A stretch of 64,000 bases of DNA, taken from positions 1,630,995 through 1,694,994 of the forward strand of contig NZ_CVLB01000001.1 in assembly GCF_001049755.1 (NCBI RefSeq), read 5' to 3'. This document shows, in pieces, positions 1,171 to 54,521 of the stretch (within the stretch, counting starts at the first letter, position 1; every line of letters begins with the position of its first letter). A program made the translations under genes and the position numbers. Source of the stretch: Brachyspira suanatina. Its GTDB lineage: Bacteria > Spirochaetota > Brachyspiria > Brachyspirales > Brachyspiraceae. Under the pieces are notes generated by a model. It searched no databases, was not told the origin of the DNA, and saw nothing but the letters and a program-made list of their open reading frames with translations.

Positions 1171-2001
1171 TCAATTATTATTAGAATTTTCTATATTGGC
1201 CATAAATAATTCATCTGAAGGAAGAACTAAATTATCAATATTATCTTCTTTACCCTGACATAACTTGAAGAAGTCACAAAACTCACAATGCCTTCCAACC
1301 TTTTTATCAAAAGCTCTGTCATACCTTATATCATCAACTATTTCATCAAACCATTCTCTTAAATAATTAATAGATTCAGGAGTAAATTCTATAGTATCTA
1401 ATTTATCATCTTCAAAATGATAATAAGAACCGCTTGTAACCTTACATTTAAGCCCATCTAATATACATGCATATAATTTAAGCTGTATGGTTTTTCTATC
1501 TCTCTCATCATTATCTTCACCAACATCATAATACTTTGTGGTTTTATAATCTACAATCTGTAATGTACCATCAGCAGATAAATCTATTCTATCTATCCTT
1601 CCAAATAAAATATAATCTCTGACTCTATTTTCCATATAGCTTTCTATTTTGTAAGGTACTTTCTGTCCAAATGAATTAAAGAAATTAGAAAGCATATAAA
1701 GCCCTCTTTCTCCAAGTTCCTTTTCTTCTTCCCTGCTATTGAAAAATGCTCTTATACCGCTTCTTTTCCATACATTTCTAAAAATATTATACAGATTCTC
1801 TAAAGTTCTTTCTTCTGCACGCTGTTCATAAAATTCTTTACAAGCCAAATGTATAGCATTACCAAAGATAAAATAAACATTAACACTTCTCTTTTGCTTT
1901 TTAAAAGGCTTCTCTATATAAGTATATCTATACTTTCTAGGACAAAGCAAATATGTAGACATGCTGTATTCACTAAATCTCTGTAATTTTTTAGCTTCCA
2001 T
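1171..2001 (-). CDS. PD-(D/E)XK nuclease, RecB/Cas4-like with four-cysteine Fe-S motif
   Basis: A 276-residue protein with the RecB-nuclease core: H50 in GNAIH, GRIDRID with D136/D139, VDYK with D150 and K152, and QLKLYA with Q172. Cysteines C20 (in LLCPRKY) and C239, C242 and C248 match the N- plus C-terminal cysteine arrangement that holds a 4Fe-4S cluster in Cas4 and AddB. Enzymes of this fold cut or trim DNA ends in repair or recombination. There are no cas genes, CRISPR repeats or add/rec helicase genes nearby, so it is a stand-alone RecB-like exonuclease rather than Cas4. No clear Shine-Dalgarno precedes the ATG. The ankyrin gene ends 44 bases upstream, so the two may be co-transcribed. 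Confidence 0.85.
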   Translation of the reverse strand: MEAKKLQRFSEYSMSTYLLCPRKYRYTYIEKPFKKQKRSVNVYFIFGNAIHLACKEFYEQRAEERTLENLYNIFRNVWKRSGIRAFFNSREEEKELGERGLYMLSNFFNSFGQKVPYKIESYMENRVRDYILFGRIDRIDLSADGTLQIVDYKTTKYYDVGEDNDERDRKTIQLKLYACILDGLKCKVTSGSYYHFEDDKLDTIEFTPESINYLREWFDEIVDDIRYDRAFDKKVGRHCEFCDFFKLCQGKEDNIDNLVLPSDELFMANIENSNNN

Positions 2002-51652: not shown

Positions 51653-51681
51653 TTGAAAATTTATTATATTTACTATATTAT
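51653..51681 (+). promoter_or_regulatory. Putative promoter for fba
   Basis: TTGAAA (51653-51658), 17-base spacer, TATTAT (51676-51681), followed by AAGGAG before the ATG at 51727. Confidence 0.5.
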
Positions 51682-51726: not shown

Positions 51727-52689
51727 ATGGTTAAATTCTCAGACTTAGGTCTTGTTAATAGTAGAGAACTTTTTAAAAAAGCTATAGGCGGCGGTTATGC
51801 TATACCAGCATTTAACTTTAACAATATGGAACAACTTCAAGCTATAGTACAGGCATGTGTAGAAACTAAAAGCCCTGTTATAATTCAGGTTTCTTCAGGT
51901 GCTAGAAAATATGCTAATCAAACATTATTAAGATATATGGCTCAAGGTGCTGTTGAATATGCTAAAGAATTAGGCGTTAATGTACCTATAGTTTTACACT
52001 TGGATCATGGCGATAGTTTAGAACTTTGTAAAAGCTGTATTGAATATGGTTTTTCTTCTGTTATGATAGACGGAAGCCATTATGATTATAACAAAAACGT
52101 AGAAATTACTAGAAGCGTTGTTGAGTATGCTCATAAATATGATGTTACTGTTGAAGGTGAATTGGGAGTACTTGCTGGTGTTGAAGATGATGTTGTAGCT
52201 GAACATCACACTTATACTCAGCCTGAAGAAGTAGAAGACTTCGTTAAAAAAACAGGAGTTGACTCTCTTGCTATTTCTATAGGTACTAGCCATGGTGCTT
52301 ATAAATTTAAACCTGGTCAAAATCCTCAAATAAGATTAGATATTCTTAAAGAAATTGAGAAAAAAATTCCTGGATTCCCTATCGTACTTCATGGTTCTTC
52401 AAGCGTACCTCAAGAGTATGTTAAAATGATCAATGAAAACGGCGGTAAATTAGATGATGCTATAGGTATTCCAGAAGAGCAATTAAGAGAAGCTTCTAAG
52501 AGTGCTGTTTGTAAAATCAACATCGACAGCGATTCAAGACTTGCTATGACTGCTGCTATTAGAAAAGTATTCCATGATGATCCTAAAGAATTCGATCCTA
52601 GAAAATATTTAGGACCTGCTCGTGATGAAATGAAAAAACTTTATATGCATAAAATAATTAATGTATTAGGTTCAAACGGTAAAATATAA
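51727..52689 (+). CDS. fba: Class II fructose-bisphosphate aldolase
   Basis: A 320-residue zinc-dependent aldolase that splits fructose 1,6-bisphosphate into two triose phosphates in glycolysis. PAFNFNNMEQLQAI, VLHLDHGDS (zinc His and catalytic Asp), MIDGSHYDYNKN, EGELGVLAGVED, VDSLAISIGTSHGAYKF (zinc His) and VLHGSSSVP are all conserved. Length fits the class II type. Strong ribosome site. Followed by a small basic gene and then a terminator. Cytoplasmic. Confidence 0.97.
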   Translation: MVKFSDLGLVNSRELFKKAIGGGYAIPAFNFNNMEQLQAIVQACVETKSPVIIQVSSGARKYANQTLLRYMAQGAVEYAKELGVNVPIVLHLDHGDSLELCKSCIEYGFSSVMIDGSHYDYNKNVEITRSVVEYAHKYDVTVEGELGVLAGVEDDVVAEHHTYTQPEEVEDFVKKTGVDSLAISIGTSHGAYKFKPGQNPQIRLDILKEIEKKIPGFPIVLHGSSSVPQEYVKMINENGGKLDDAIGIPEEQLREASKSAVCKINIDSDSRLAMTAAIRKVFHDDPKEFDPRKYLGPARDEMKKLYMHKIINVLGSNGKI

Positions 52690-52712
52690 TAAAAATTAAA
52701 GGAGATATTACT

Positions 52713-52805
52713 GTGGGAAAACAACATAGAAAAGTAGTTAAACGCAAAAGAGCATTAAGAAGAATAAAAAGACAAAAAGATGCTCTAAATGCTAAAACTA
52801 AATAA
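52713..52805 (+). CDS. Small basic protein, 30 residues, GTG start
   Basis: GTG at 52713 opens MGKQHRKVVKRKRALRRIKR (first 20 residues) and 10 more to TAA at 52803-52805; 14 of 30 residues are Lys or Arg. An AAAGGAGA ribosome site lies 8-9 bases upstream, and a strong terminator begins 18 bases after the stop, so it is co-transcribed with fba. Very short MGKxHxKVxKRxRR proteins occur in several bacterial phyla as unnamed or ribosome-associated-looking proteins; that likeness is from memory. The composition suggests RNA or nucleic-acid binding. Function unknown. Confidence 0.8.
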   Translation: MGKQHRKVVKRKRALRRIKRQKDALNAKTK

Positions 52806-52822: not shown

Positions 52823-52854
52823 TTAAGGGCATGAGTTAATTCTTATGCCCTTAA
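52823..52854 (+). terminator. Terminator of fba-small gene transcript
   Basis: Thirteen-pair stem TTAAGGGCATGAG / CTTATGCCCTTAA (one G-T pair), 6-base loop, TTATTT afterwards. Confidence 0.85.
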
Positions 52855-52903: not shown

Positions 52904-53800
52904 ATGAAAAAATATATATTAATATTATTATTTGCTTTAATAGTATCATGTACAAAAACAGTAGATAAATCACCTCTTGCACTTCAAACAGATTTCGGAA
53001 GAAAGGATAATGCAGTTGCTAGTATGTACGGAGTTGCTTTGACTGTAGATAAAGATTTAAAAGTTTATGATCTTACTCATGAGATACCTGCTTTTAATAT
53101 TTGGGAGGCTGCTTTAAGACTAGATCAAACTGCTAGATATTGGCCTGAAGGTACTGTATTTGTAAATGTTGTAGATCCGGGAGTTGGTACTGATAGAAAA
53201 TCAGTTGTTATGAAAACTACTAACAATTATTATTTTGTAACTCCTGATAATGGTTCTTTAACTTTTGTTGCTGAAAGTTTAGGTATAGAAGAAGTAAGAG
53301 AAATTGATGAAGCTGTAAACAGACTCACTAACTCTCAAGAATCATATACTTTTCATGGCAGAGATGTTTATGTATATACTGGTGCAAGACTAGCTTCAAA
53401 GCAAATAACTTTTGAACAGGTTGGAAAATCTTTAGGTACTAATATTACTAAAATAGAATATCAAAAAGCAAAATTTGAAAACGGAAAATTCTCTGCTAAT
53501 ATTCCAATACTTGATGTACAGTACGGTAATGTATGGTCATCACTTCCTCGTCAATTAATGCTGGATAATGGAGTACAGGTTGGAGATATTTTGAATGTTT
53601 CTATATACAATCAAGGAAATTTAGTATGGAACGGAGATGTCAAACTTGTTAATACTTTCGGAGATGTACCTGAAGGCGATAATATGGCTTATTTCAATTC
53701 AGAGCTTAATTTCTCTGTTGCTGTGAATATGGGTAATTTCTCTGACAAATATAAAGTATACAGCGGTCCTGAATGGAGTATGGAAATAATAAAAAAGTAA
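52904..53800 (+). CDS. DUF62/SAM hydrolase-like protein with lipoprotein signal
   Basis: A 298-residue protein. The start MKKYILILLFALIVSC is a lipoprotein signal (Cys16). The mature part follows the DUF62 fold: LQTDFGRKDNAVASMYG (substrate-binding Asp), YDLTHEIPAFN, VVDPGVGTDR (D91, R98), FVTPDNGSLT and FHGRDVY. Known members hydrolyse S-adenosylmethionine to adenosine and methionine, or are halogenases, but they are cytoplasmic. Export of this fold is unusual, so the substrate may be something else. AGGA ribosome site. It precedes a hairpin and the HNH nuclease gene. Confidence 0.85.
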   Translation: MKKYILILLFALIVSCTKTVDKSPLALQTDFGRKDNAVASMYGVALTVDKDLKVYDLTHEIPAFNIWEAALRLDQTARYWPEGTVFVNVVDPGVGTDRKSVVMKTTNNYYFVTPDNGSLTFVAESLGIEEVREIDEAVNRLTNSQESYTFHGRDVYVYTGARLASKQITFEQVGKSLGTNITKIEYQKAKFENGKFSANIPILDVQYGNVWSSLPRQLMLDNGVQVGDILNVSIYNQGNLVWNGDVKLVNTFGDVPEGDNMAYFNSELNFSVAVNMGNFSDKYKVYSGPEWSMEIIKK

Positions 53801-53903: not shown

Positions 53904-54521
53904 ATGGCAAGAAGAAAAAAGAAAAAATCATCTCCTTTATTTATATTATTCATTTTATTAATAGCAGCAGGATACTATTATTATAATAATGTATACAATA
54001 AAAAAGAAATATCAAAAACAGAAAAGCCCAAAAAAGAAACTGTTACTATATACAACAGAGACGATTGGGGAGATTGGGCTGATGAAGATAATGATGGACT
54101 TAATACAAGGCATGAAGTATTAGCCAGAGAATCATTAATAAAACCTGTAATATCTAATAACAGAGTGATATCAGGAAAATGGTATGATAAGTTTACAGGA
54201 AAATATTTTACTAATGCCAAAGATTTAGATATAGATCATTTAGTACCTTTAAAAAATGCCCATATCAGCGGTGCTAGTAATTGGAGCAAAGAAAAGAAAA
54301 ATGAATACTACAATTATATGAAGAATGAAAATCATTTGGTAGCTGTATCAAAAGGTGCAAATCGTTCTAAAGGTGATAAATCCCCGGTAGAATGGCTTCC
54401 TCCTAATGAAGAATATCAATGCGAATATGTAAGAGAATGGTATAAAATCAAAACCGATTGGGGGCTTACAATAGAAGAAGGTTTTGATGAAGTATCAAAC
54501 AGAGTATGCAAAGGAAAATAA
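53904..54521 (+). CDS. Membrane-tethered HNH nuclease (DUF1524-type)
   Basis: A 205-residue protein with a basic start, one membrane helix (about 11-28) and an outer nuclease domain. The family motif WADEDNDGLNTRHEVL (59-74) has a D-x-D-x-D-G calcium-like loop, and DIDHLVPLKNAH (109-120), NHLVAVSKGANRSKGDKSP supply the HNH residues (H112, N154 region). Related secreted nucleases occur in Gram-positive bacteria. It faces outward, so it may cut external DNA for nutrition or uptake. No uptake genes are adjacent. Confidence 0.82.
   Translation: MARRKKKKSSPLFILFILLIAAGYYYYNNVYNKKEISKTEKPKKETVTIYNRDDWGDWADEDNDGLNTRHEVLARESLIKPVISNNRVISGKWYDKFTGKYFTNAKDLDIDHLVPLKNAHISGASNWSKEKKNEYYNYMKNENHLVAVSKGANRSKGDKSPVEWLPPNEEYQCEYVREWYKIKTDWGLTIEEGFDEVSNRVCKGK

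Follow-up and report, generated by a model that had tools for sequence, protein, structure and literature searches.

The short reading frame that separates fba from its terminator in Brachyspira suanatina raises two questions, whether so small a frame encodes a protein at all and, if it does, to which class that protein belongs. The frame lies in a window of 64 000 nucleotides from contig NZ_CVLB01000001.1, and the features of the locus are given in Table 1. The original prediction described a GTG start, a strong Shine-Dalgarno site, 14 lysine or arginine residues among 30 and a position between fba and the terminator, and all of these were present as described; the basic residues comprise eight lysines and six arginines.

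Table 1. Positions of the small gene, of the signals and genes around it and of the separate bS22 gene.
Feature	Position	Strand	Details and evidence
Basic 30-residue protein gene MGKQHRKVVKRKRALRRIKRQKDALNAKTK	52713..52805	+	GTG start, TAA stop; ORF, genus-wide conservation, profile hits
Shine-Dalgarno site AAAGGAG	52698..52704	+	8 nt 5' of GTG; read from sequence
fba, class II fructose-bisphosphate aldolase	51727..52689	+	PF01116, E 1.5e-103
Candidate promoter TTGAAA-17-TATTAT upstream of fba	51653..51681	+	Consensus match 10/12
Intrinsic terminator hairpin 3' of small gene	52823..52854	+	13-pair stem, T-rich tail
SAM hydroxide adenosyltransferase gene	52904-53800		PF01887/PF20257
Gene for a 205-residue protein	53904-54521		
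Canonical bS22 MPSGRKRLRQKMATHKRKKRLRKNRHKKK, outside the window	G000:C2:329681-329767; L064 ~1495-1584	-	bS22 search

It is presumed that fba is the upstream cistron on the same transcript as the small gene and that the candidate promoter serves both. Promoter-like matches in the region were not more numerous than in shuffled sequences, so the fba promoter candidate is weak, while two terminator-like hairpins were observed where shuffles predict 0.3. Upstream of fba, threonyl-tRNA synthetase is encoded by a divergent gene, and a SAM hydroxide adenosyltransferase gene follows the terminator. The start of the latter product resembles a lipoprotein signal (MKKYILILLFALIVSCTK), which is odd for an enzyme that works on cytoplasmic SAM; a similar start was found at loci L018, L039 and L041. 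The 205-residue protein has an N-terminal membrane segment, and its sequence DIDHLVPLKNAHISGASNW...NRSKGD resembles secreted HNH-type nucleases by eye.

The small protein was found in 24 of the 26 Brachyspira genomes searched, the source genome of the window included, and the two that lack the gene (G005 and G159) are draft assemblies, fragmented and 85-88% complete. Each genome carried one copy except G004, which carried two. The two copies, on contigs C38 and C82 of G004 (loci L006 and L021), are different alleles, and the assembly also gave two bS22 matches; G004 is probably a mix of two strains or species.

Comparison of 17 distinct coding sequences of the small gene yielded a dN of 0.049 and a dS of 0.341 (dN/dS 0.144); fba from the same loci, used as a yardstick, yielded a dN/dS of 0.069. 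At least 19 synonymous and at least 19 nonsynonymous changes were counted in a gene with only 21% synonymous sites (binomial p = 7e-5), and the variable columns at codon positions 1, 2 and 3 numbered 9, 6 and 20 respectively. Neither a lack of conservation in related genomes nor equal synonymous and nonsynonymous rates, the two outcomes named beforehand as contrary to a gene, was observed. The coding length is constant at 93 nt within Brachyspira, while the length of the 3' flank varies. The start codon alternates between GTG and ATG, the latter in several species, an exchange that is expected of a start codon and therefore supports this reading of the start. All copies extracted from fba loci have a GGAG-type site 5' of the start, and no Rfam family overlaps the locus. 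At the level of sequence, these comparisons establish the frame as a true protein-coding gene under purifying selection.

The distance from the fba stop codon to the start of the small gene ranges from 14 to 52 nt across species. Other species retain the terminator hairpin, with changes on one side of the stem matched on the other (GGGCAT/ATGCCC to GGGTGT/ATACCC), and in the sister genus different hairpins are found in the same place behind the small gene. Since the terminator keeps its place after the small gene, and the hairpins of the sister genus do likewise, fba and the small gene very probably share one transcript in Brachyspira and the sister genus. In Brachyspira the small gene would be the last cistron of this transcript, with a strong Shine-Dalgarno site of its own for translation, and cotranscription with a gene of glycolysis would tie its expression to growth.

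Further members came from a first profile, which combined the Brachyspira copies with one relative; a profile of 24 members (A2) was then run on 296 Spirochaetota genomes with a cut-off of E<=0.01. A2 matched 56 of the 296 genomes, in single copy in each with the exception of G004. The match in G086, which is marginal (E 0.007) and has an internal stop, was discounted as not credible, which left 55 genomes: 27 from the Brachyspiraceae, of which 29 genomes were available, and 28 others. Weak matches in other families (G024, G157, G184, G132 and G131) were read out and are not small genes of this kind. The family members are 29-41 residues in length and start with GTG or ATG, and a clear Shine-Dalgarno site precedes the start in copies from both clades, whichever of the two codons is used. 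They conform to the pattern [MV](G/S/T)K(Q/K)(H/Y)xxxxKRKRAKRRLKRKKK; the core KRKRAKRRLKRKKK is kept across families, with 41-67% identity to the window protein, and positions K10, R11, A14, K19, R20 and K22 are nearly fixed.

A uL2 tree placed the positive genomes in two groups, the Brachyspiraceae (support 100/97) and a further clade (25 rows, support 100/99) that also contains six negative genomes, several of which are incompletely assembled. As the positives lie in two supported clades, inheritance of the family, as read from this tree, is mostly vertical. The sister family f2 was without the gene by profile search. Two genomes of f2 (G019 and G020), a family of the same order, had neither the small protein nor bS22 by profile, and their assemblies are 97-98% complete. 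This distribution is compatible both with one ancestral gain followed by losses and with transfer from one clade to the other. Most Spirochaetota families are without the protein by profile search, and their ribosomes work without it, which counts against a ribosomal role. A scan of GTDB contigs confirmed only three spirochaete loci among 240 pattern matches and missed most of the known members, and no family member was found on the viral contigs scanned. The original prediction likened the MGKxHxKVxKR pattern to very small proteins in other phyla; this likeness was not confirmed, all relatives found being from the Spirochaetota, by searches that are insensitive outside this phylum, and the profile matches place the family in two Spirochaetota clades.

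The window protein is predicted by AlphaFold2 to form one helix (residues 3-29, mean pLDDT 93; for a helix this short and charged, such a value is a poor guide to the bound state). The single copy, slow evolution, positive helix, fixed positions and strong Shine-Dalgarno site resemble those of known tiny ribosomal proteins, and for this reason an rRNA-binding reading is favoured. By this analogy, the window protein is probably a lineage-specific, single-copy, strongly positive, helical rRNA-binding protein that is ribosomal or ribosome-bound. The single Lys/Arg-rich helix would most likely sit in a pocket of the ribosomal RNA, or bind rRNA during assembly, much like bS22 or eL41, and we infer expression, RNA binding and a location on the ribosome for this protein. 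An association with the ribosome had been put forward as a possibility, and it is plausible from size, charge, single copy, mostly vertical inheritance and predicted helix; the nearest known tiny ribosomal protein, bS22, comes from a different gene of the same genomes.

Next in likelihood is that the protein is no ribosome component but a general RNA chaperone, or a small protein that binds DNA or belongs to the nucleoid. A short helix rich in lysine and arginine can bind any nucleic acid, and no ribosomal protein genes were located near the small gene in any context seen. However, the single copy, the near-constant length and the fixed residues listed above suggest a specific site, and a general nucleic acid binder appears unlikely, if still to be given some weight.

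The small gene is adjacent to fba throughout Brachyspira and in the sister genus g14, an arrangement seen nowhere else, and a peptide partner or regulator of the aldolase or of glycolysis would account for the fba operon. In genus g15 of the Brachyspiraceae, however, the upstream neighbour is ruvB, and fba was not seen beside the small gene in the second clade, where the neighbours include a radical-SAM gene, cutA, a type III pantothenate kinase gene, an MlaD-like gene (by eye) and others. A long convergent gene is common beside the small gene in this clade, with mnmE after it at loci L087 and L088. These contexts make an aldolase-specific role improbable; the order of the fba operon alone would mislead, as the protein is conserved in differing contexts.

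A basic peptide that is secreted, as an antimicrobial, a signal or otherwise, would also present a cationic helix. The window protein, however, has no signal sequence and few hydrophobic residues, none of the loci read has an export or processing gene next to it, and it is near-invariant across species, unlike such peptides, all of which makes a secreted role very improbable.

Borrelia bS22 is encoded by a 93-nt gene with a GUG start, which was missed by annotation until cryo-EM (PMC10618245), and the window protein, of the same size class and from a gene that the original prediction likewise takes to be unannotated and below usual gene-finder cutoffs, could on these grounds be taken for the Brachyspira bS22 (mS38/AURKAIP1-like). 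The sequence of Borrelia bS22 was obtained from PDB 8FMW, which was reached by a search with a Bacteroidota-type bS22. The canonical bS22 of Brachyspira is encoded elsewhere in the genome (Table 1), with a product 71% identical to that of Borrelia; the bS22 profile matches this second gene at E 8e-15 and does not match the window ORF. bS22 was found in 253 of the 296 genomes and in 53 of the 55 genomes with the new family, the remaining two (G001 and G224) being assemblies of 460 and 600 contigs respectively. Profile-profile comparison of the new family with bS22 aligned one column, and shuffle tests of A2 against bS22 gave P values of 0.27-0.70. The window protein is similar to bS22, a small subunit protein of Mycobacterium, Flavobacterium and Borrelia and the analogue of mS38, which characteristically binds the 16S h2/h27/h44/h45 pocket, in being ~30 residues long, very basic, single-copy and helical, but the bS22 family reads MPxGKKRKxxKxxTHKRKK...NRHKKK and the two genes coexist. 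An identity with bS22 is hardly credible and was rejected, and these comparisons show the window protein to be distinct from it. Least credible of all is a non-coding RNA or fba 3' UTR with an incidental ORF, a reading prompted by the position ahead of the terminator and refuted by codon-level conservation, given the synonymous excess, the intact frame, the ATG/GTG exchange, the lack of an Rfam family and the recurrence of the protein sequence in unrelated contexts.

The family was also compared with other tiny ribosomal proteins. Once shuffling had accounted for composition, A2 showed no clear link to bS22, eL41, THX or bL35, which weighs against the ribosomal reading; the same test does not connect the bS22 of Mycobacterium with the bS22 profile of spirochaetes, which limits its reach and leaves room for a structural analogy. 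eL41/eS32 is eukaryotic and archaeal and binds the pocket that is filled by bS22 in bacteria (PMC10618245). Like the new family it is a tiny single basic helix, and it shares an RRLKRK-like stretch with many family members (by eye), but the resemblance is no better than that to shuffled eL41 (P 0.14), and the likeness was rejected as not above composition. The C-terminal helix of bS21 is basic too, and in Brachyspirales its end (KALKRMKRKIKKERR) scores above shuffles (P 0.004-0.03, uncorrected for multiple tests), whereas the bS21 tails of most other spirochaete families give no such signal (P 0.05-0.8); bS21 is intact in Brachyspira, and replacement of a lost bS21 tail was therefore rejected. 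bTHX (S31) and bL34 belong to the same size and charge class, but bTHX gave a P value of 0.28 against shuffles, and a separate, intact bL34 is present in all 31 genomes, by which its replacement was rejected. The likeness to the N-terminus of bL34 (YQPSxxKRKR against YNPRxKRKR, by eye) was discarded, as only one of three sequences was supported by shuffles (P 0.04).

No match above the curated cut-off was found in Pfam or NCBIfam for the 24 members, a negative that is weak because both libraries also miss Brachyspira bS22. The PDB gave no match at E<=10 by sequence or profile, with a method that does find bS22 relatives, and literature searches for small ORFs or a ribosome structure of Brachyspira yielded nothing relevant. 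The family appears to be undescribed so far.

The lineage-specific tiny ribosomal proteins bS22, bL37 and bL38 emerged one by one via cryo-EM, and proteins of this kind are missed by gene finders. The present family may possibly, rather than probably, be a new ribosomal protein of ~30 residues in two Spirochaetota clades, occupying an rRNA site that is unfilled by known bacterial proteins and acting alongside bS22. Sequence analysis alone sufficed to delimit the family, its exact sequences and its hosts are given, and the ribosomes of cultivable Brachyspira could show its place.
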